DNA of 64,000 nucleotides. It comes from an uncultured Gammaproteobacteria bacterium. Its GTDB lineage: Bacteria; Pseudomonadota; Gammaproteobacteria; Steroidobacterales; UBA11654. The position numbers were made by a program, and so were the translations under genes. This document shows, piece after piece, positions 4,083-35,671 of the stretch. Position 1 is the stretch's first letter, and every line of letters begins with the position of its first letter. Below the pieces are notes generated by a model. That model was not told the origin of the DNA. It saw nothing but the letters and a program-made list of their open reading frames with translations, and searched no databases. The stretch spans positions 286,990-350,989 of the forward strand of contig CACDKD010000002.1 in the NCBI GenBank assembly GCA_902553145.1, read 5' to 3'.

Positions 4083-4180
4083 TTTTTTCCTCTTTGGGTT
4101 AAACTCCCACAAATCCCAATCAATAACCAAATAAGGGCACCCATTGACTGTGTCGAATTGTGTTCGATATTAATGCAAAA

Positions 4181-4209
4181 TTGCGCTGGGATTTATAACA
4201 TAATAAACT
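4181..4209 (+). promoter_or_regulatory. Possible promoter for map-glnD
   Basis: TTGCGC (4181-4186), 17 nt, TAAACT (4204-4209), about 40 nt before the map ATG. It overlaps the divergent rpsB promoter. The match is moderate. Confidence 0.3.
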
Positions 4210-4220
4210 CCGTGCAACAA
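4192..4220 (-). promoter_or_regulatory. Sigma70-type promoter for rpsB-tsf-pyrH-frr-uppS
   Basis: On the minus strand TTGTTG (4215-4220) and TATAAA (4192-4197) are separated by 17 nt. The leader to the rpsB start is then about 100 nt, long enough for an S2-type autoregulatory leader, though I did not find a convincing conserved fold. Confidence 0.5.
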
Positions 4221-4249
4221 TAAAAAAGAGAGTAAAATTCTAATAGAAG

Positions 4250-5017
4250 ATGTCTGTAGAAATAAAAACAATAGAGCAACAGGAAAAAATGAGGATTGCT
4301 GGAAAGCTTGCCTCTGAAGTGCTTAATATGATTGGTGAGCACGTAAAGCCAGGTGTAAGCACAATGGAACTTGATGAAATTTGCAATGATTACATTGTAA
4401 ATACTCAGAAAGCAATTCCAGCGAATGTTGGTTATAGAGGTTTCCCAGGAACAACATGCACATCAATTAATCATGTTGTGTGTCATGGAATACCTAGTGA
4501 AAAACGATTGAAGAATGGTGATATTGTAAATATTGATGTCACTGTAATTAAAGACGGCTTCCATGGAGACACTAGTAGAATGTTCATTGCTGGAAAAACT
4601 TCAAATCAAGCAAAAAAACTGATTGATGTCACATATGAATCAATGTGTAAAGGAATAAGAGCTGTAAAACCTGGAAATACCTTAGGTGATATTGGTCATG
4701 CAATCCAAAAGCATGCGGAAGGAAATTACTTCAGTGTCGTTAAAGAATATTGTGGTCATGGAATTGGAGAAATATACCATGATGAACCACAGATTCTTCA
4801 TTATGGTCTTCCTGATACTGGAATGGAGCTAAGTCAGGGAATGACATTTACTATAGAACCCATGGTTAATTTAGGTGGAGCCGGAGTTAGGCTCTTATCT
4901 GATGGATGGACAGTTGTAACCAAAGACCACTCTCTATCAGCACAGTGGGAACATACTATTCTTGTAACAAGTGATGGTTTTGAGGTGCTTACTCTTGCCC
5001 CAAATGAGTCAATTTGA
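4250..5017 (+). CDS. map: Methionine aminopeptidase, type I
   Basis: Removes N-terminal Met from nascent proteins. At 255 residues it has bacterial type Ia length. The five metal ligands can be placed: D96 and D107 (NIDVTVIKDGFHGDTSRMF), H170 (YCGHGIG), E203 (FTIEPM) and E234 (WEHTI), with H79 in VCHGIP as substrate-side His. It is divergent from rpsB, the usual map/rpsB arrangement, and 11 nt upstream of glnD, so the two are probably cotranscribed. Confidence 0.97.
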   Translation: MSVEIKTIEQQEKMRIAGKLASEVLNMIGEHVKPGVSTMELDEICNDYIVNTQKAIPANVGYRGFPGTTCTSINHVVCHGIPSEKRLKNGDIVNIDVTVIKDGFHGDTSRMFIAGKTSNQAKKLIDVTYESMCKGIRAVKPGNTLGDIGHAIQKHAEGNYFSVVKEYCGHGIGEIYHDEPQILHYGLPDTGMELSQGMTFTIEPMVNLGGAGVRLLSDGWTVVTKDHSLSAQWEHTILVTSDGFEVLTLAPNESI

Positions 5018-5028
5018 TTCTCGAATAA

Positions 5029-7668
5029 ATGATTAGTTTACAATCTTTAGAATCTGGAACTGAAAATAACTTTTCATCCTATGAAACCAGAAAGAAGGCG
5101 ATCTCTAACTTAAAGGAATTGATACAAAAAGAGTCCTCTCTAATTGAAAAACTAATCATAAAAGAACCGATTAAAGAAATTTTATCAAAGAGATGTGAAT
5201 TGAACGATGGTGTGATCCGCTATGTGGCAGAAAAATTTTTCAAAAAAGATGAATCAAAACTTAACATTATTGCAGTTGGCGGATATGGCAGAGGTGAATT
5301 TTATCCAAAATCAGATACTGACTTACTGATCCTTCTGGATAAAAACAGCAAAAATGATCTCAAAAATAATATTTCAAAATTTCTGACATTCCTTTGGGAT
5401 ATTGGCATTGAGGCAAGCCACAGCACAAGAACAATCAATGAATGCATAAAACAGTCTAAAAAAGATATTTCTGTTGGGACATCCCTCCTTGAGTCTAGGT
5501 CAATTTTTGGATCAGGCGAACTCTTCGCAGAGTATGAGAAAAGAGTTCTTTTAACACAATCATGGAAAAATGAAAAATTCCTTGCTGCAAAAATTGATGA
5601 GCAAAGTAACCGCCATAATAGATTCAACAATACTGCATATAACCTTGAACCTAATATAAAAGATGGTCCGGGTGGTTTGAGGGATGCTCATACAATTTTC
5701 TGGATTGCTAAGAAACTAGGATACGAAAGTATTGCTGGTTTGGAGAAAGATAACATTCTAAACAATGAACAAGTTAAATTACTCCTAGAATCATGGGGTT
5801 TGTTATCAAAAATAAGGTTTGCACTTCACTCATTGGCTAAACGTCCAGAAGATCGGCTTTTATTCGATTATCAAAGGATCCTTGCGGATAATTTTGGCTA
5901 TAAAGATTCCGAACACCTAATGGCCGTTGAAGTTTTCATGCAAGATTATTATAAAGCAGCAAAAACCATTTCGAGATTCAATGAAATATGTCTACAGATA
6001 TTCGATCAGAAGATTAATGCTAGACGGTTTATGGCGAAAAAAAATATTAATAAAAACTTTCACATAAGAAATAAGCTTATTGGATTGAGAAAGGACATAG
6101 GTTTCAAAGATAACCCAAGCTTGCTTCTTGAAATATTTCTTCACTTTCAGGAAAACAATATCATCGGGATTGAGTCTAAAACAATTAACCAAATACTGGA
6201 AAATCTAGATCTGATCAACGATGAATTTAGAGCTGACCCAAATAATAAGAAACTATTCATCAAGATACTTAAGGCCCCTGAAGGCGTCACACATGAACTC
6301 AAGAGAATGAATCTTTATGGTGTCCTTGGTTTATACCTTCCCATATTTGGTCAAATTGAAGGCAGAATGCAATTTGATCTCTTCCATACACTCACTGTTG
6401 ACGAACATACATTAAATGTAGTCAGTAATTTAAGAAGGCTTGCTCTAAAAAGATTTGATCACGAATATCCGGAAGACAGTAAAAAAATGCAATCTTTAGA
6501 ATCACAAGAAATACTCTACTTAGCAGGATTATTTCATGACATAGCAAAAGGCAGGGGTGGAGATCATTCTATTCTTGGAGCAAAAGATGCTGAAGATTTT
6601 TGTATTTCACATGGTTTGACAAGATATCAATCTAAACTTGTTTCCTGGCTTGTAGAAAACCATTTGATTTTTTCTTTGACTGCCCAAAAGAAAGATATTC
6701 ATGATCCATTGGTTATCAAAGAAATTGCTTCAATTATTGGAGATGAGGAACGACTAGAATACTTATTTCTTCTAACGGTTTGTGATGTGAGAGCAACAAA
6801 TCCAAATTTATGGAATAGCTGGAAAGAAAGACTCTTCAAAGATCTTTATCAATTAACAAAAAATGCCCTGAGAATGGGGCTTGAAAATACCCTTGATAAG
6901 GAAGAAATTGTTAAAGAGAAAATAGAAATAACGACAAAATATCTAGAGATTCAAGGCCTTGATATCACTGAAATGGACGCAGCTATTGGGAAGTTGAGTG
7001 AGGAATATTTCCTAAGATTTAATCAGGACGAAATCAATTATCATCTTGAGAAGCTCATATCGAATAAAGCCAAAGATGAGGAAAATACCATCATTGGACT
7101 GAAACTCATTGAGGAAGAAGGTTTGATGCTGCTATTCATAAAAACTGTTATTGATTTTGATACTTTCTCGATTATCACAAATAATTTGGTCGATAAAAAT
7201 GTATCCATTAGAGATGCAAAAGTCATTGAACTGAATGATGGTAGCTGCATATACAATTTCTATACTGATATGCCCAAAGGTGACGCTTACGATATAGATA
7301 ATAAGTTAGAATCTTTAATTGGAAACTTAAGCTTAAGACTCGAAAAAAAGCAAATAACTAGTAATAAGAAATTCAAACTGCCCCGAAGGCTAAGAAGCTT
7401 TTCAACATCAACAAAAGTAAATTTTTTAGAGGATCATGTTCATAATCGGACTGTTCTAGAGATGGTTTCAATAGATAGGCCAGGTCTTCTTGTCGATATA
7501 TCTGAGGTTCTAAGAAGAAATAATATTTGGATCGAATCAGCAAAGATAGCGACAATTGGCGAAAGAGCTGAGGATGTCTTTTATCTCAGAAACGAACATC
7601 AGGATGTCATTCCTCTTGAAACAACAAAGAGATTGGAGTCAGAACTGATTGAGTCATTGGATAATTAA
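5029..7668 (+). CDS. glnD: PII uridylyltransferase / uridylyl-removing enzyme
   Basis: Sensor of glutamine that uridylylates or deuridylylates PII proteins in nitrogen control. 879 residues. Domain order: nucleotidyltransferase with GGYGRGEFYPKSDTDLLILL (residues 84-103; D96 and D98 are the metal aspartates), then a GlnD-specific linker (EPNIKDGPGGLRDAHT), an HD phosphohydrolase with LFHDIAKGRGGDHS near residue 500, and two C-terminal ACT domains (the last begins near 807 with VSIDRPGLLVDIS). All catalytic elements look intact, so both activities are expected. Confidence 0.96.
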   Translation: MISLQSLESGTENNFSSYETRKKAISNLKELIQKESSLIEKLIIKEPIKEILSKRCELNDGVIRYVAEKFFKKDESKLNIIAVGGYGRGEFYPKSDTDLLILLDKNSKNDLKNNISKFLTFLWDIGIEASHSTRTINECIKQSKKDISVGTSLLESRSIFGSGELFAEYEKRVLLTQSWKNEKFLAAKIDEQSNRHNRFNNTAYNLEPNIKDGPGGLRDAHTIFWIAKKLGYESIAGLEKDNILNNEQVKLLLESWGLLSKIRFALHSLAKRPEDRLLFDYQRILADNFGYKDSEHLMAVEVFMQDYYKAAKTISRFNEICLQIFDQKINARRFMAKKNINKNFHIRNKLIGLRKDIGFKDNPSLLLEIFLHFQENNIIGIESKTINQILENLDLINDEFRADPNNKKLFIKILKAPEGVTHELKRMNLYGVLGLYLPIFGQIEGRMQFDLFHTLTVDEHTLNVVSNLRRLALKRFDHEYPEDSKKMQSLESQEILYLAGLFHDIAKGRGGDHSILGAKDAEDFCISHGLTRYQSKLVSWLVENHLIFSLTAQKKDIHDPLVIKEIASIIGDEERLEYLFLLTVCDVRATNPNLWNSWKERLFKDLYQLTKNALRMGLENTLDKEEIVKEKIEITTKYLEIQGLDITEMDAAIGKLSEEYFLRFNQDEINYHLEKLISNKAKDEENTIIGLKLIEEEGLMLLFIKTVIDFDTFSIITNNLVDKNVSIRDAKVIELNDGSCIYNFYTDMPKGDAYDIDNKLESLIGNLSLRLEKKQITSNKKFKLPRRLRSFSTSTKVNFLEDHVHNRTVLEMVSIDRPGLLVDISEVLRRNNIWIESAKIATIGERAEDVFYLRNEHQDVIPLETTKRLESELIESLDN

Positions 7669-7736: not shown

Positions 7737-8006
7737 TTATATTAGACTAACTATTTCAGTAATAACCATTGATAAACCTAATAGACTAGAATACCAAGCA
7801 TAAACAGTAACTAGCTCAACATCCTTGCCCATTTGTTTTGTAATGAATAAGTGGATAAGCACAGAGAATAGGTAACTTGCACCTATAATTCCTGCTGACT
7901 GAATAATGATACTATTCGCATTTAGATTATTGGGCGACAAATATAATAGAACTCCACAAATGAGTATGAATGTTCCACCGACTGCATTGATCCGGTCTAG
8001 GCGCAT
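7737..8006 (-). CDS. Small three-helix membrane protein, unknown function
   Basis: About 89 residues with three hydrophobic segments (FILICGVLLYL; SAGIIGASYLFSVLIHLFI; YSSLLGLSMVITEIVSLI). I do not recognise a family. The ATG at 8004-8006 is preferred over the TTG one codon upstream, and no clear Shine-Dalgarno precedes either. It sits alone, convergent to glnD and just downstream of dsbB on the same strand. Confidence 0.55.
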   Translation of the reverse strand: MRLDRINAVGGTFILICGVLLYLSPNNLNANSIIIQSAGIIGASYLFSVLIHLFITKQMGKDVELVTVYAWYSSLLGLSMVITEIVSLI

Positions 8007-8051
8007 CAAGAGATAAAATTCTGCTCAAACCAAAAGAATCGTTCTTTCATA

Positions 8052-8558
8052 TCAACTAATTGATCTTAAATTTGACCAGACTCCATAAATGGCAAGGATT
8101 GTTAGTGAAATTATCACCCATGCTGGCATGCTCAAACCGACAAAGGACCAATCTACGTTTGCACATTCGCCTGAACCAGAGAAAACCATTTCAAAAACCT
8201 CTGCAAGCGCAAAGTTCTCTATCATAAAATCAAGTCCAGGACCGCATCCAGGAACTTTATCTGCAGGAAGGTTTTGCAACCAAACATGTCTCGAGGCGAC
8301 AAGTATCCCTGAAAGAGAGGTGATGAATATTAAAGAAGTGATAAAAAACCTTGATAGTCGACTATTCAATGGGAAAGTTCCAATAAGAAACACTAAACCA
8401 AGCAGGATGACAGAAATCCTCTGAAATATGCACATTGGGCAAGGCTCTAAGCCAAGAGCATGTTCGGCATATAAAGCATAAGCCATTAAAAGAAAGCATG
8501 CGCAGAAACCAAGGAAGCTATGAGTTCTTATCGATAATTTTGTAAAAGCTTCTATCAA
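8052..8558 (-). CDS. dsbB: Disulfide bond formation protein DsbB
   Basis: Inner-membrane quinone-dependent oxidase that recharges periplasmic DsbA. 168 residues with four hydrophobic segments. The first periplasmic loop has C40-P-M-C43 followed by FQR. The second loop has C105 (VPGCGPG) and C132 (GECANVDW), matching the C41/C44 and C104/C130 pairs of E. coli DsbB. The start is TTG, overlapping the tsaB stop as TTGA, and no ATG precedes the first membrane helix. Translation is probably coupled to tsaB. Confidence 0.93.
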   Translation of the reverse strand: MIEAFTKLSIRTHSFLGFCACFLLMAYALYAEHALGLEPCPMCIFQRISVILLGLVFLIGTFPLNSRLSRFFITSLIFITSLSGILVASRHVWLQNLPADKVPGCGPGLDFMIENFALAEVFEMVFSGSGECANVDWSFVGLSMPAWVIISLTILAIYGVWSNLRSIS

Positions 8559-29855: not shown

Positions 29856-30656
29856 CTAGGAGCCTAAATAGCCGCTGACATGACTTATGATTTGATCGGT
29901 ATTCAGCTCAAATATTCCACCTTTTACATCTTCAAGCTCTACATATTCAGAATCTTTAACAAGCGACATTGCAATTTTTGTTGGTTCAGTCAGTGAACTG
30001 TCATCATTGATAATTAAAGGAACGTGCTGAAGTAAAGGAAGTCTTTCCTCTGAGGGATAATTAAACATCGAATAAAAACCATACCAACTGACCGGCATGT
30101 TTTTGACTTGATCAATAAAATTCTCAAACGCCCTTTCAATCGAAATGCCCTCACTTCGATTGGTGATGGTAAATTCCCACATCCCTTTTAAGCAATCAAT
30201 ACTCTCATCGATTGAACCTTTGGTTTGACTGCCTAAAAGCTCTGCTCTTTTGTCTATATCAAAGAAAGGGTAAGTAACGAAAATTACCTTATCGATGAGT
30301 TGAGGCTCATGTATTGCGATTTCATTGGCAATCGCTGATCCAGTGTGAAATCCAAGAAGAGTAATATCTCCTGAAAGCTCTTTTGAAGCTTTTAAAGATT
30401 TGATGACTTCAATGACATTTAATGCATAGTCCTCGATAGAAATCGGTTCTTCTATCTTTGATGACAGACCATAACCCAACATATCAAGTGAGATTGCAGC
30501 GATGTTGGTTTGAGATATGAGATCAGTGCAAAAAGTGTCGTAGTAACCACCACTGTATGGCATTGGGTGAAGGCAGATAATTGTCTGATTTGACTCACCA
30601 TATCTTCTTCCATGAACCTGGCCCAATTTTGTTTCTATGTAAAAATTCTTCCTCAT
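29856..30656 (-). CDS. Alpha/beta-hydrolase-fold protein with His at the nucleophile position
   Basis: 266 residues. The fold is clear: IICLHPMPYSGGYYDTF (HP oxyanion type), DMLGYGLSS, then the elbow LGFHTGSAIANEIA. The central residue, normally Ser, is H104 (GFHTG). The C-terminal place of the catalytic His reads DVKGGIFELN, with no His. So the triad is absent as usually defined. It could be a lyase, isomerase or binding protein. It heads the minus-strand run to acyP-HSL-gltX. Confidence 0.85.
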   Translation of the reverse strand: MRKNFYIETKLGQVHGRRYGESNQTIICLHPMPYSGGYYDTFCTDLISQTNIAAISLDMLGYGLSSKIEEPISIEDYALNVIEVIKSLKASKELSGDITLLGFHTGSAIANEIAIHEPQLIDKVIFVTYPFFDIDKRAELLGSQTKGSIDESIDCLKGMWEFTITNRSEGISIERAFENFIDQVKNMPVSWYGFYSMFNYPSEERLPLLQHVPLIINDDSSLTEPTKIAMSLVKDSEYVELEDVKGGIFELNTDQIISHVSGYLGS

Positions 30657-30739
30657 TCTCCATTCCTTAAAGAAAAAAGCCCCGTGGTGATTCTTAAGTT
30701 ATCTGCCGCAGAGCTGTAATTTTTAATCTTACATAAATC

Positions 30740-30762
30740 GACAGGATTCTGTCAATTTGACA
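30740..30762. promoter_or_regulatory. Overlapping inverted repeats, candidate MarR operator
   Basis: GACAG-GATT-CTGTC (30740-30753) overlaps the perfect palindrome TGTCAA-T-TTGACA (30750-30762). The second covers the -35 box of the plus-strand promoter. A MarR-family gene is second in the operon, so autoregulation is plausible but not shown. Confidence 0.5.
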
Positions 30763-30786
30763 CTCATAAGGATTTTCTTCAATAAT
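30757..30786 (+). promoter_or_regulatory. Sigma70-like promoter of the DUF1838-MarR-VOC-MFS operon
   Basis: TTGACA (30757-30762), 18 nt, AATAAT (30781-30786). Leader of about 95 nt before the first gene, which has AAGGAGA at proper distance. Confidence 0.5.
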
Positions 30787-30887
30787 GGATAGATTGAATT
30801 GAAATCCCTGGGATAGATTAAGTGCCAAAAGAATGCCTTACCTATATCAATAGTTATCTAAATAAACAGGGAAAATAAGGAGAAGCA

Positions 30888-31787
30888 ATGAAATTTAAAA
30901 TTAGTTTAATATCATCTTTTGCAGTTTTCGCTCTATTGCATGTCGATTTAGCGTCGGGATTTGAATTAACTCCTGGTGCTGGGCATCTTAAAGCACAAAG
31001 AAAAATAATATGCTCAACTGTCGATGATAAACCTATAGTTTATTGGTGGTATGGAAGAATGTATAGTCGGGTTCAAGGTGAAAAAGATCGATTACTTTTC
31101 AGGGTTGAAGGAATGAACATTAGAGCTTGCACAAGCATTGAAGATTCCGAGAGAGGAAATGGATTTAGAATGGTCAGCAGGGAACTTCTCTTCTACCAAG
31201 ACCCAGAAACAGGAGAAATCATGGATGAGTGGGAAAACCCTTGGACCGGAGAAACACTTCAGGTTCTTCATGTTGCAAATGATCCTGTTAATTGGGGAAA
31301 CTTCTATGAGATTGACAGCAATGGCAATCCCTTTGAGATGAGAAGTTTCAATACTCATCAGGACGATTGGTGGGATACAACTACAATTCCATTGTTTTAC
31401 AAAAATCCGCTTGCTGGAGACTTTCAGGAATATGTGGGTGGGACATACCATGCAACAGAGATGTTCAATACCACTGGCAGTATTAAAGATTTAACAGACG
31501 ATTATAAGGACACCGCAAAAGTTGGCATTGGTTGGGAAAGAATCTCATATTGGCTTCCTTGGATGAAGATGAATGGCAAAAATGGGATTGTTTATTTCCA
31601 TACATTTGGAAAGAAACTGGATGATTACAATGACTTACCTCAATCGATGAAAGATGTGATTAAGAAGCAATATCCAAAGTATGACAGCCCTCCTCCAACA
31701 ACTGACCAAAGGCGGAATGAGACCAGTTGGACATACTTCAAAAAAATGCTTGGTGGAACGGTTAGTGAAAATGAACCAGGTCACTAA
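30888..31787 (+). CDS. Secreted DUF1838-family protein
   Basis: 299 residues. A signal peptide (FKISLISSFAVFALLHVDLASG) is followed by the DUF1838 pattern: RKIICSTVDDKPIVYWWYG, LLFRVEGMNIRAC, SRELLFYQDPETGEIMDEW, NPWTGETLQVLHVANDPVN. The function of DUF1838 is unknown; members often occur near catabolic or oxidoreductase genes. Strong AAGGAGA Shine-Dalgarno. First gene of a plus-strand operon, overlapping the MarR gene by 17 nt. Confidence 0.85.
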   Translation: MKFKISLISSFAVFALLHVDLASGFELTPGAGHLKAQRKIICSTVDDKPIVYWWYGRMYSRVQGEKDRLLFRVEGMNIRACTSIEDSERGNGFRMVSRELLFYQDPETGEIMDEWENPWTGETLQVLHVANDPVNWGNFYEIDSNGNPFEMRSFNTHQDDWWDTTTIPLFYKNPLAGDFQEYVGGTYHATEMFNTTGSIKDLTDDYKDTAKVGIGWERISYWLPWMKMNGKNGIVYFHTFGKKLDDYNDLPQSMKDVIKKQYPKYDSPPPTTDQRRNETSWTYFKKMLGGTVSENEPGH

Positions 31788-32265
31788 AGATAAGAAATTA
31801 TCTGAAAGCATTGAGTTTCTTTCAGACTTTCAGTTGCTTTTTGGAAACATCATAAGAATCAATGGCGCATTCTTGGAAGTCGCTGAAAAAATCTGCTCAA
31901 ATGATGATTTAATTAGCGTTCCAATCTGGAGAGTGGTTGCCGTGATACGCTTAAACCCAATGACAGTATCTGATATAGCAAAATATCTAGGTCTAAAGAG
32001 ACAAAGTGTGCAGTCCACAGTGAATCAAATGAAGAGAAGAGGATTAATTAAATTTAGAAAAAATCCAAATCATAAAACCTCTCCTTTTGTGATACTCACT
32101 AAAAAAGGGGATGGCAAGATTGAAGATATCCTCAGGTATCAAAAAAAACTCACTGAGGTTTTCATTAGTGGAAGCGATATTACAATGAGGGATGTGGTTT
32201 CAAATAGAGAATTTCTGAGGGCTCTCAGGGAAAACTCAGAAAAAAATATTTCAAAATTAAACTAG
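31771..32265 (+). CDS. MarR-family transcriptional regulator
   Basis: About 164 residues. The winged helix-turn-helix is MTVSDIAKYLGLKRQSVQSTVNQMKRRGLIKF followed by a wing with NPNHKTSPFVILTKKG. Long flanking helices are typical of MarR dimers. The start at 31771 (MNQVTKDKK) is preferred: the frame is open 30 codons further upstream, but that would overlap DUF1838 by over 100 nt. Likely an autoregulator responding to the operon's substrate. Confidence 0.88.
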   Translation: MNQVTKDKKLSESIEFLSDFQLLFGNIIRINGAFLEVAEKICSNDDLISVPIWRVVAVIRLNPMTVSDIAKYLGLKRQSVQSTVNQMKRRGLIKFRKNPNHKTSPFVILTKKGDGKIEDILRYQKKLTEVFISGSDITMRDVVSNREFLRALRENSEKNISKLN

Positions 32266-32273
32266 GAGTCAAT

Positions 32274-32576
32274 ATGAAAGCATACATGATAGTAAGAGCT
32301 GTCATTCATGACAGAGAGAAATTTGTGAATGGGTACGGAGTCGAAGCAGCAAAATTAGTCAATAAGTTTGGGGGGAAATACTTGATAAGAGCACCTGGAG
32401 CAATGGCATTAGAAGGCATTGAAGATGAAAATAACTCTGTTGTGATTTCAGAATGGTCCTCCAAAGAGGCTGCAGAAGATTTCTGGAACTCTAATGAATA
32501 TCAGGAAGTAAAAAAACTCAGAGAAGGGATTGCGGATTGCTATGTCCTTGTAATCGAATCAGATTCATTATCTTAG
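32274..32576 (+). CDS. DUF1330-family protein
   Basis: 100 residues with the ferredoxin-like DUF1330 pattern: AYMIVRAVIHDREKFVNGYG, a glycine-rich KFGGKYLIRAPGAMALEG, and VVISEWSSKEAAEDFWNSNEYQE. Related dimeric alpha-beta-barrel proteins include monooxygenases and muconolactone isomerases. Shine-Dalgarno TAGGAG. It lies 8 nt after the MarR gene. Confidence 0.85.
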   Translation: MKAYMIVRAVIHDREKFVNGYGVEAAKLVNKFGGKYLIRAPGAMALEGIEDENNSVVISEWSSKEAAEDFWNSNEYQEVKKLREGIADCYVLVIESDSLS

Positions 32577-32585
32577 AAGATAGTG

Positions 32586-33053
32586 ATGGGAAATACGATT
32601 GTAAAGAGAACAACTCTCATTGTTCGCGATATGGAAAAATCGAGAGCATGGTACGAAGAAGTTCTAGAAATGAGCGCATACTATGATGATGAGGTTGTTT
32701 TGAGTGGCAACGGAATGGCCGCAGGCAAAAAAGGGGATAGAACTCATTTAGTTATTCTCAAGTGTCAAGACCCCGTAATAGGGATGATAGGGCTCCTTCA
32801 GTGGGTTAAACCAGTTTGGCCAGCACCTAAAGATATTCCCAGTGCGGTCGATTATGGAATGCCAACCTTTGTTGTTGATAGCGATGATGTCAGAGCCCTC
32901 CATGAGCGTGCAGTAAAATTGGACAGCATTATTCATAGCGAACCTCGAGAATGGTCTGTTCGAGGAGCAACCGGTGATATGATCGATTTCCTAGGTATGT
33001 CACTTTTTGATCCTGATGGACATTTTTTTGAGGTCAATCAACGCTTGGGATAG
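32586..33053 (+). CDS. VOC-family dioxygenase/glyoxalase-like protein
   Basis: About 155 residues. KRTTLIVRDMEKSRAWYEEVLEMSAYYD begins the first beta-alpha-beta module, and FDPDGHFFEVNQRLG ends with the metal-ligand-type E. The ATG at 32586 has AGAAG at 6 nt; a GTG one codon upstream is the alternative. It resembles the facing VOC protein at 35093 in its N-terminus (RRTTLIVRDIEES). Confidence 0.85.
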   Translation: MGNTIVKRTTLIVRDMEKSRAWYEEVLEMSAYYDDEVVLSGNGMAAGKKGDRTHLVILKCQDPVIGMIGLLQWVKPVWPAPKDIPSAVDYGMPTFVVDSDDVRALHERAVKLDSIIHSEPREWSVRGATGDMIDFLGMSLFDPDGHFFEVNQRLG

Positions 33054-33062
33054 GAGAGAATT

Positions 33063-33494
33063 ATGAGATTTCAACGTGCAAATTATCTGGTAAGCAATAA
33101 AGAAAGGGCATTATTGCTTTACAGAGATATATTAGGAATGAGTCTTGATTTTATGAAGGTGTCAGAAGAAGATTCATATTCTTATGATGTTTTTGATATT
33201 GATGACTCAATAGCAATTGAATTCGCCTTGCTGAGCTATCAAGATCAACCCAGAGTGATGGCACTGACTATACTTGGTGATGGTAATCTAGAGAAAAACC
33301 CCCTTCCGAGAAGAGCAGCAATCTGTATTGAAGTTGATGATGTTGACGATGCCGTATCTAAATGCAATGAAAATGGTTTTCATTGCTACGGAGAGGATCA
33401 CTTGATTACTCATGATGGGAGAGAAGGCAAAGAGGTGGGCATTCTTGATGACGATGGGAATCTTATTGTGATCTATAAAATAGAGAAAGCCTGA
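33063..33494 (+). CDS. VOC-family protein
   Basis: 143 residues. RANYLVSNKERALLLYRDILGMSLDF is the first module, and EVGILDDDGNLIVIYKIEK the last. Shine-Dalgarno TAGGAGAG. Its stop overlaps the MFS start by 1 nt (TGATG), so the transporter is translationally coupled. The sequence differs strongly from the neighbouring VOC gene, so they are not a recent duplication. Confidence 0.85.
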   Translation: MRFQRANYLVSNKERALLLYRDILGMSLDFMKVSEEDSYSYDVFDIDDSIAIEFALLSYQDQPRVMALTILGDGNLEKNPLPRRAAICIEVDDVDDAVSKCNENGFHCYGEDHLITHDGREGKEVGILDDDGNLIVIYKIEKA

Positions 33495-34822
33495 TGGATA
33501 ATACTGCAGCCGATAGTCAAAGATACAAGAACTCATCCTCCGCTTGGGTCATGGTGAGTCTCATGATGGTTGCATATATCTTTTCCTTTGTTGATCGTTA
33601 CATACTTGGGCTGCTGATTGAGCCCATAAAAGCTGACTTAAATCTAACGGATACTCAGATAGGCTTACTTCTCGGGCCGGCATTTGCAATTTTCTATGCC
33701 ACAATGGGTTTACCCCTGGGTTATCTGGCAGACCGATCAAAAAGAATTACGATCGTTTCTATTGGAATTTTTGTTTGGTCGCTCGCTACAGCTGCGTCTG
33801 GTTTTGCACAAAAGTTCTGGCATCTTTTTCTTGCCAGGATGATGGTTGGCATAGGTGAAGCTACCCTAAGTCCTTGTGCCCTTTCCATAATTAATGATAG
33901 TTTTCCTGCTGAAAGAAGAGGAAGACCAATCGGTCTTTATACAACTGGCATGTCCATTGGCCCGGCTCTTGCTTATCTCGGGGGTGCGGCAGTTTTAACA
34001 TGGACCAACAAAGCAGGGCTTATTGATATTCCAATACTCGGTGACATGGCACCTTGGCAATTAGCATTCATTATTGTTGGTCTGCCTGGTATTTTATTGG
34101 CCTTTTTGGTTTATTTGAGAAAAGAGCCTGAAAGGCCACCTGATCATAATCCAAGCGGTAACCTCAGAGAGGGAATTGGTGGTGCACTTAAGTTTTTTGC
34201 AAAAAAAAGATGGGTGTATGCAAGCTTCATACTTCCTGCATCTGTGATGACAACCATTGCGTACTCTCAGGCATGGGTGCCAGCAATGTTTGAAAGGACT
34301 TGGGGAATGGATGCGGCATATTTTGCATTCATTAATGGCTTGCTTCTGCTTGCTTTTGGTCCAATTTCAAATAATGGTGCTGGCTGGCTCTGTGATTACT
34401 GGGAAAAAAAAGGTTATAAGGATGCGGGATTGAGGGTCCTAATATTGGGCGCTGTGATTCTTTTGCCAACCGGTATTCTTGCGCCTCTAATGCCTAATCC
34501 AACATGGTGCTTTATCCTTTATAGCATCAATACAATCGGAACGGCTTTAACATCATCGTCCGCCTTGGTCACTCTTTTAAGAGTTGTGCCAGCAAACCTC
34601 AAGGGTCTCTCGGTTGCATTTTATTTGATGTGTATTAGTTTAGCTGGACTACTCATCGGTCCAACTGCTGTTGGAGTACTCAACGATAATCTTTTCGGAG
34701 AAGATGGGGTTAGATACTCAATGGCACTGGTTCCACTGATTATAGGAACACCAGTCATGATAATGATTCCTTTTATGAGAAAGCATTATTTAAGAGAGCT
34801 AGAGGAGATAAAAAAGTCATGA
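33494..34822 (+). CDS. MFS transporter (spinster-like)
   Basis: 442 residues with about 12 membrane helices. Motif A between helices 2 and 3 is GYLADRSKRITIV. SFVDRYILGLLIEPIKADL and the ARMMVGIGEATLSPCALSIINDSFP helix are typical of the spinster-like or sugar-phosphate/hexuronate MFS group. As the last gene of the operon it probably imports the substrate of the DUF1838/VOC proteins, or exports a product. Confidence 0.9.
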   Translation: MDNTAADSQRYKNSSSAWVMVSLMMVAYIFSFVDRYILGLLIEPIKADLNLTDTQIGLLLGPAFAIFYATMGLPLGYLADRSKRITIVSIGIFVWSLATAASGFAQKFWHLFLARMMVGIGEATLSPCALSIINDSFPAERRGRPIGLYTTGMSIGPALAYLGGAAVLTWTNKAGLIDIPILGDMAPWQLAFIIVGLPGILLAFLVYLRKEPERPPDHNPSGNLREGIGGALKFFAKKRWVYASFILPASVMTTIAYSQAWVPAMFERTWGMDAAYFAFINGLLLLAFGPISNNGAGWLCDYWEKKGYKDAGLRVLILGAVILLPTGILAPLMPNPTWCFILYSINTIGTALTSSSALVTLLRVVPANLKGLSVAFYLMCISLAGLLIGPTAVGVLNDNLFGEDGVRYSMALVPLIIGTPVMIMIPFMRKHYLRELEEIKKS

Positions 34823-34844
34823 AATATATTCTAGTTACTTCAGA

Positions 34845-35093
34845 TCAATCGAGAAGTTCTGATTGCTCTTGAATGACTCCTTCATCCTTTCTTGAATCAA
34901 CATCGCCAGTGATTTCTTTTGCGAGATCACTTGCAGTGGTTTCAAAAAGAAATGGGAAGACAGAGTGAATAATTGCTGCAAATCCAGCAAAAATCATTTT
35001 TAAACCGTAACCAGCAGCGCAAATCAAGTGCTCGAAGTAAGTTTCACCTATCGAATGTGGGTGTTCAGTAAAAATTTTTTTAATTTTATTCAT
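34845..35093 (-). CDS. DUF6356-family protein
   Basis: 82 residues. FTEHPHSIGETYFEHLICAAGYGLKM and HSVFPFLFETTASD are typical of DUF6356, a small protein with one or two hydrophobic segments and unknown function. The start overlaps the VOC stop by 1 nt (TGATG). The gene converges on the MFS gene with a 22-nt gap. Confidence 0.8.
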   Translation of the reverse strand: MNKIKKIFTEHPHSIGETYFEHLICAAGYGLKMIFAGFAAIIHSVFPFLFETTASDLAKEITGDVDSRKDEGVIQEQSELLD

Positions 35094-35587
35094 CAGTCTT
35101 TATCCATTCCGCTGACTATGTGATTAAGTTCAACCAAGTAACCATCGGGATCATAGAATTTTGAAACGTTGACACAAATGACATCCTTTCCATCATAAGA
35201 TGGATATTCTGTCAAAGTTGGTTCTTGAATAACTTCTATTGAATTCATTTTCTGAATAGCCTCCCATCGAGAATCTAAATCATTGGTATTGAATACAAGC
35301 ACCATATTCTGCGGAGTAAAGCCCTCTCTCCTGACGGGCTTTTGTTTAATCTCGGCATTGGGATCATCGTAAGCATAATCAACCAGTCCAATAACGCCTA
35401 TATGTTCGTCAACAGTCTTAAGGAAGATCAATCGAATAGTTTTTTCACCATGGGTGTAAACTTGGTCATAAATAGACTCCATTCCAAGGATATTTCCATA
35501 GAGATTTAGCGACTCTTCGATGTCTCGAACAATGAGCGTTGTTCGTCTAAATATAATGTCAGAGTTTAATGGATTATTCTTCTCCAT
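35093..35587 (-). CDS. VOC-family protein
   Basis: 164 residues: RRTTLIVRDIEESLNLYGNILGMESIYD, LIFLKTVDEHIGVIGLVDY, and KFYDPDGYLVELNHI. It closely resembles the plus-strand VOC protein at 32586 in both modules (TTLIVRD; V-I-G-M/V-I-GL; DPDG). This suggests the two facing units belong to the same system. Heads a two-gene minus unit with DUF6356, behind GATAT repeats. Confidence 0.85.
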   Translation of the reverse strand: MEKNNPLNSDIIFRRTTLIVRDIEESLNLYGNILGMESIYDQVYTHGEKTIRLIFLKTVDEHIGVIGLVDYAYDDPNAEIKQKPVRREGFTPQNMVLVFNTNDLDSRWEAIQKMNSIEVIQEPTLTEYPSYDGKDVICVNVSKFYDPDGYLVELNHIVSGMDKD

Positions 35588-35606
35588 ATCAATATAACCA
35601 AAAATA

Positions 35607-35641
35607 ATATCGATATAATATCAATAGGATATACCGATATC
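35607..35641. promoter_or_regulatory. Cluster of GATAT inverted repeats, candidate operator
   Basis: ATATCGATAT (35607-35616), GATAT-A-ATATC (35612-35622) and GATAT-accg-ATATC (35628-35641) lie in the 84 nt between phosphomannomutase and the VOC-DUF6356 unit. The symmetrical arrangement suggests a dimeric repressor site, although the region is also simply AT-rich. Confidence 0.4.
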
Positions 35642-35671
35642 AATTCAAATGATTTCTATGTGATTTTTATA

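Follow-up and report, generated by a model that had tools for sequence, protein, structure and literature searches.

A MarR-associated operon encoding two metal-less VOC proteins in a small gammaproteobacterial genome, probably the reduced part of a conserved catabolic system

The window (the whole stretch of 64,000 nucleotides that was analysed) belongs to a 1.44-Mb assembly that is 85% complete; the relatives named below are gammaproteobacterial MAGs. Six tightly packed genes lie on its plus strand: a DUF1838 protein (30888–31787; PF08894, 3.7e-73), which by eye has a likely N-terminal signal sequence; a MarR-family regulator (31771–32265; PF12802, 4e-12); a DUF1330 protein (32274–32576; PF07045, 6e-20); two single-domain VOC proteins, VOC1 (32586–33053; PF00903, 7e-10), without a canonical metal site, and VOC2 (33063–33494; PF00903, 3e-8), with 0/4 GloA metal ligands; and an MFS transporter (33494–34822; PF07690, 5e-46, and a weaker match to OATP). 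Facing them on the minus strand are a DUF6356 protein (34845–35093; PF19883, 1.5e-24) and a VOC paralogue, VOC3 (35093–35587; PF00903, 3e-11). In this layout the open reading frames and Pfam matches agree with the original prediction, which had been made from the letters of the DNA, as they do with its remark that the facing VOC protein resembles the one encoded at 32586: VOC3 and VOC1 are ~31% identical and have RTTLIVRD in common. A divergent neighbour was absent from that prediction, i.e., an alpha/beta hydrolase (ABH) gene on the minus strand (29856–30656; Pfam Hydrolase_4, 2e-6).

The start of the MarR gene is better placed at the ATG at 31771 than at 31681, because the orthologous open reading frame in a same-genus locus (L037) begins there. 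With this start, the DUF1838 and MarR genes overlap by 17 nt, and the successive gaps from DUF1838 to MFS are -17, 8, 9, 9 and -1 nt. The six genes appear to form one packed unit behind a single promoter-like site, and a logic of regulator, transporter and enzymes fits them. PADLOC returned nothing but weak HTH matches for MarR, so there is no sign of a defence system. Elsewhere in the window are a match to t44 RNA (RF00127; 4098–4184, minus strand) and six tRNA genes.

Ahead of the DUF1838 gene is a putative sigma70 promoter, TTGACA-N18-AATAAT (30757–30786, plus strand), recognised purely as an 11/12 match to the consensus. Over its -35 box lies a composite palindrome, GACAGN4CTGTCAATTTGACA (30741–30762, plus strand), which is a putative MarR operator and contains the 13-bp palindrome TGTCAATTTGACA at 30750–30762. 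Neither the promoter nor the palindrome was part of the original prediction. The 13-bp palindrome is present in 5/5 MarR-bearing loci (the window, L036, L037, L038 and L041) and absent from both loci that have no MarR gene (L039 and L040); in one further genome (G001) the operator is likewise directly before DUF1838. The long form, GACAGN4CTGTCAANTTGACA, has two exact sites genome-wide, and the reversed control pattern has none. The second site, at C6:21871, precedes a gene of ~113 amino acids (p113), a DUF4437 cupin gene and a CoA-transferase gene, and a one-mismatch copy of it is kept in the orthologous place in G005. Homologues of p113 (37% identity) and of the DUF4437 protein (58%) are encoded side by side in the f7 islands (see below) of G132 and G076, 17–20 kb from VOC2. 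It is unlikely that the second site stands before such a gene pair by chance, the probability being near 1% by our own estimate, which takes perhaps ten of the ~1,400 genes to be island homologues. As in autoregulated MarR operons, a winged-helix MarR gene lies within the operon and a palindrome lies at its promoter, and it is proposed that MarR acts at the palindrome at 30741–30762. The stretch upstream of VOC3 (35588–35660), conserved in L037 and L038, contains repeated GATAT motifs, which are a possible site for a separate regulator.

All or part of the gene set is present in six same-genus loci, and gene order is alike across independent assemblies and in other families. VOC2 has a match at E<=1e-20 in 39 of the 296 genomes of the order, the genus included. 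Strong matches outside the genus (more than ~165 bits) occur in 16 genomes, which are related and therefore do not represent independent events; VOC1, VOC2 and MFS adjoin in all 15 of those inspected, which belong to families f6, f7 and f15. DUF1838 lies no further than ~10.5 kb from VOC2 in 14/16 strong-match genomes (the exceptions being G089 and G161), and the DUF1838 gene near VOC2 is often the only copy in the genome. The ABH gene is co-conserved, in the same-genus loci and in L094–L102, L105 and L107; in other families its homologues come immediately after the MFS gene. Thus, the gene set spans families f1, f6, f7 and f15, and the conservation in other genomes on which the original prediction had staked itself is found in three other families, for VOC1, VOC2 and MFS in 15/15 genomes inspected.

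VOC2 matches of ~150 bits in f13 and elsewhere (L108–L112) are not in this cluster, and a second VOC1 paralogue in the same genome as the window (G000:C7) has an acyl-carrier-protein/ketosynthase/Rieske neighbourhood, which marks a different locus. That locus (L052, G000:C7:22000–41500) carries genes for an acyl carrier protein, a ketosynthase III-like protein, an FAD hydroxylase, a Rieske oxygenase and MFS proteins, interspersed with housekeeping genes; G005 and G008 have a similar layout, and these genes may constitute a small cluster for biosynthesis or modification.

The intergenic region between ABH and DUF1838 (30657–30887) is a deletion scar. By blastn against L036, it is a mosaic of three blocks (4146–4270, 6829–6881 and 7945–8062 of that locus), and the stretch 30600–30950 matches three separated blocks of L036/L037. 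The first corresponds to the junction after the ABH gene (the ABH–TonB receptor junction), the second to the promoter between the receptor and a CN-hydrolase gene, and the third to the CN-hydrolase gene at its 3′ end, continuing into DUF1838; read directly, the translation of the scar retains YINSYLNK, a remnant resembling DISRYLNK of the lost CN-hydrolase gene. In L036–L038, a TonB-dependent receptor gene (Plug domain, 4e-15) and the CN-hydrolase-fold gene sit between ABH and DUF1838. Two deletions, one of the TonB receptor and one of the CN-hydrolase gene, with the promoter spared, would be a simple account of the mosaic. A further gene, C15 (~312 amino acids), follows the MFS gene in L037, L038, L041 and L139. 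Orthologues of the receptor, the CN-hydrolase and C15 were not found elsewhere in the window assembly in a search of this 85%-complete genome; the missing genes could lie in the unsequenced remainder, although the scar itself is within one contig. G006 and G009 have no MarR, C15 or receptor, and in G004 the CN-hydrolase and DUF1838 genes alone remain. The locus has thus eroded repeatedly within the genus. In an alignment of the CN-hydrolase homologues from L037, L039, L096, L097 and L101, the Glu of the Glu–Lys–Cys triad is kept; as read from the alignments, the catalytic Cys is replaced by Ser in f7 and by Val in the genus, and the Lys by Arg in f7. Without the catalytic cysteine, even hydrolase activity is uncertain, and these island proteins are possibly a non-canonical or inactive branch of the fold. 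The scar can be seen as genome streamlining at work: genes for uptake and for the hydrolase-fold protein are gone, whereas the promoter and the core operon are retained. Since an outer-membrane receptor is among the losses, what is left of the operon may have a different function in the window genome.

Purifying selection acts strongly on the genes that remain, which are thus maintained rather than decaying. Compared with same-genus orthologues, dN/dS is ~0.03–0.06 for the operon genes where it can be calculated (~0.03–0.05 for MarR) and 0.046 for VOC3; a control gene, the neighbouring phosphoglucomutase/phosphomannomutase-like gene, has 0.07, near the operon values. For the same comparison pN is low (0.05–0.16), and most genes are close to saturation at synonymous sites. 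The ABH gene has a dS to L036 of only 0.38, in contrast to the near saturation of the operon genes, which hints at recombination.

VOC1 is predicted to have the VOC fold (AF2 model with pLDDT 91.7; Foldseek match to 1ss4, TM 0.80), and VOC2 is assigned to it by Pfam only. At the positions of H5, E56, H74 and E122 of Escherichia coli GloA, VOC1 has R/G/M/E (1/4 kept) and VOC2 has R/A/A/V (0/4), as judged by eye from hhalign alignments, with the E56 position and the VOC2 E122 position in gapped parts. By the same kind of evidence, VOC1 and VOC2 lack both positions at which extradiol dioxygenases carry their His ligands. The original prediction had spoken of ring-cleavage-type folds and had pointed to metal sites in the VOC proteins as a check; as the canonical ligands are missing, ring cleavage by VOC1 or VOC2 is not supported, and they are unlikely to be metal dioxygenases. 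They may be metal-free isomerases or hydratases, or binding proteins. The Foldseek matches of VOC1 include the antibiotic-binding proteins TnmS1/TnmS3 and TioX; those to glyoxalases and fosfomycin enzymes are equally good, so binding is not singled out. A sequence search of the PDB gave no close relative of DUF1838, VOC1, VOC2, C15 or ABH, and VOC1 has no match in a plasmid collection.

The DUF1838 protein is predicted to have an all-beta, barrel-like fold (AF2 pLDDT 84.7). Compared by VIA with calycins, the model gives Z 7.4 to CpeS (4tq2) and to a DUF3598 protein (2o62), and porins score as high (Z <=8.2). No firm structural relative emerged, with TM at most ~0.3 among the best-ranked Foldseek matches and porins and calycins mixed at VIA Z <=8.2. 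In the plasmid collection, DUF1838 occurs in unrelated contexts only (Novosphingobium, Streptomyces, Calothrix), and a full-text search, drawn mostly from outside the subscription literature, yielded a passing mention only. The order-wide survey found multiple copies in f13 and f15 (often at least nine matches) and one to three in f6/f7; judging by these counts, DUF1838 is a large uncharacterised paralogous family. Another DUF1838 locus (L053, G000:C3:23000–41500) encodes MFS, DUF1838, cytochrome c-like, b561, alpha/beta hydrolase and MFS proteins, together with a Rieske oxygenase and a CoA-transferase that is 58% identical to the island CoA-transferase.

In f6 and f7 genomes, the VOC1–VOC2–MFS block lies inside an island of ~50 kb with TonB receptors. 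The island encodes an FAD_binding_4 oxidase, curcumin-reductase-like ene-reductases, CN-hydrolase-fold proteins, a GntR protein, an isochorismatase-family amidase, a LeuC/LeuD-type hydratase, HMG-CoA-lyase-like proteins and CoA-transferases (including a CoA-transferase III); some islands add a class-A FAD hydroxylase, an aldehyde dehydrogenase and a maleate-isomerase-like protein. HyuA/HyuB (caprolactamase-like) and a cyclic amidase were found in only two of the islands read (G132 and G076), and the full enzyme set is therefore not universal. The island LeuC/LeuD proteins exceed the cut-offs that NCBIfam sets for isopropylmalate dehydratase subfamilies, and they could represent a second enzyme of the leucine type. 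An HMG-CoA-lyase homologue in L055 was dropped as evidence for a regulon, because it lies among phosphate genes.

Proteins of the CpeT/CpcT family are encoded no further than 30 kb from VOC2 in ten genomes, the family being present in 73 of the 296 genomes of the order. An island protein in L095 matches PF06206 at 1.3e-34 and CpcT at 4e-7, and the L095 and L154 proteins are over the cut-off. C15 of L037 has no Pfam match; in a profile comparison, C15 matches the L095 CpeT protein with 99.7% probability (8e-26) and is, on that basis, a divergent member of the family. No CpeT/CpcT family member was found in the window genome. Of the original proposal that the six genes are a pathway for uptake and breakdown of a small compound, the regulator–transporter–enzyme logic fits, but the pathway extends beyond these genes: in relatives the locus also encodes a TonB receptor, a CN-hydrolase-fold protein and a CpeT-like protein, and larger genomes have the ~50-kb enzyme set as well. 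This appears to be a conserved catabolic island for which no described counterpart was found.

Gene content, conservation, the deletion scar, selection and the co-occurrence of the operator with MarR are direct observations. The reading that we prefer, with a probability of roughly 60%, is that of a MarR-controlled operon for inner-membrane transport and early processing within a conserved catabolic system, reduced here from the island. Its catalytic steps are all assigned by family membership, and the direction of transport, the binding of MarR and the substrate are likewise inferred. In island-bearing relatives, an organic compound, possibly pigment-like, would enter through the TonB receptors, be bound by secreted proteins (CpeT-like, DUF1838) and be carried inward by the MFS permease. 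Its processing would fall to the metal-less VOC proteins, DUF1330, ABH and ene-reductases, and its end degradation would proceed through a branched dicarboxylate, by LeuCD-type hydration, CoA transfer and HMG-CoA-lyase-like cleavage. Ligand would relieve repression by MarR at the palindrome over the -35 box. In the 1.4-Mb window genome, the receptor, CN-hydrolase-fold and CpeT-like genes would have been lost, with the promoter kept and the operon actively maintained.

Bleomycin-binding and TnmS-type proteins sequester compounds, and they are the model for a different reading, in which the operon confers tolerance: MarR would sense a hydrophobic toxicant, which the metal-less VOC proteins would sequester and MFS would export. 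The absence of a metal site in VOC1, its matches to TnmS1/TnmS3 and TioX, the pairing of MarR with MFS that is typical of efflux operons, and the loss of the uptake receptor in the window genome are all consistent with this. However, in relatives TonB receptors and many catabolic enzymes accompany the operon, and export does not need a regulon with CoA-transferase and lyase; we regard efflux as unlikely. Aromatic catabolism with the VOC proteins as ring-cleavage dioxygenases, as originally suggested, would suit the class-A FAD hydroxylase, PcaD-like hydrolase and semialdehyde dehydrogenase-like enzyme of f7 islands and the UbiD-like decarboxylase adjoining the f15 cluster L095; yet the metal ligands that an extradiol dioxygenase needs are missing, the island stretches inspected gave no recognisable Rieske or intradiol enzyme, and the set of LeuCD, HMG-CoA-lyase and maleate isomerase is not a standard lower pathway of ring cleavage, all of which makes it quite improbable. 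That the assembly is at fault, or that unrelated genes are packed together by chance, is very improbable: tight packing is usual in streamlined 1.4-Mb genomes and DUF1838 is multi-copy in many relatives, but the order is alike in independent assemblies and other families, the G001 operator lies directly before DUF1838, and purifying selection is strong.

Returning to a catabolic system reduced from an island, its lactam, imide and maleate logic together with the CpcT-like proteins suggest linear tetrapyrroles as substrates. Perhaps, the island serves the uptake and degradation, by marine heterotrophs, of antenna bilins from cyanobacteria or algae, or of chlorophyll catabolites. Secreted CpcT-like proteins would bind the bilin; ene-reductases and oxygenases would break it into lactam and alkylmaleimide units; lactam and cyclic-imide hydrolases and amidases would open these; and the alkylmaleates would be hydrated by LeuCD and cleaved in the manner of HMG-CoA lyase, the window operon being a streamlined MarR-controlled remnant. 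This proposal is doubtful, because members of the CpeT family are common across the order and the lactam enzymes are in only two of the islands read. Among the papers found on degradation or catabolism of bilins or phycobilins, in a literature mostly outside subscription journals, none appears to describe such a bacterial pathway.

An uncharacterised, probably catabolic island is conserved across several families of gammaproteobacteria; its putative operator and short list of genes open its substrate to testing, and DUF1838, DUF1330, DUF4437 and DUF6356 would be placed in a biological setting. If the substrate were a bilin or another photosynthetic pigment, there would be a genetic handle on the degradation of an abundant, nitrogen-rich class of pigments by heterotrophs.

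Among known systems, the VOC metalloenzymes (glyoxalase I, fosfomycin-resistance and extradiol enzymes) share the fold of VOC1, but their metal ligands are not conserved in VOC1 or VOC2. The secreted island proteins are in the same family as the CpcT/CpeT phycobiliprotein lyases (PF06206; 4o4o); they differ in their catabolic context in gammaproteobacteria, C15 having no Pfam match and being absent from the window genome. Maleate/dimethylmaleate-type catabolism, as in nicotinate pathways, resembles the island in its maleate-isomerase-like protein, isochorismatase-family amidase, LeuCD/DmdAB-type hydratase and lyase, whereas the island shows no recognisable enzymes for nicotinate or 2,5-dihydroxypyridine and has additional enone reductases, FAD enzymes and TonB receptors. 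To our knowledge, the set of DUF1838, two metal-less VOC proteins and DUF1330 matches no known operon. Its architecture is like that of MarR-regulated catabolic operons for small ligands, with the MarR gene in the operon, a palindrome over the -35 box, and enzyme genes packed into a single unit with that for an MFS transporter.
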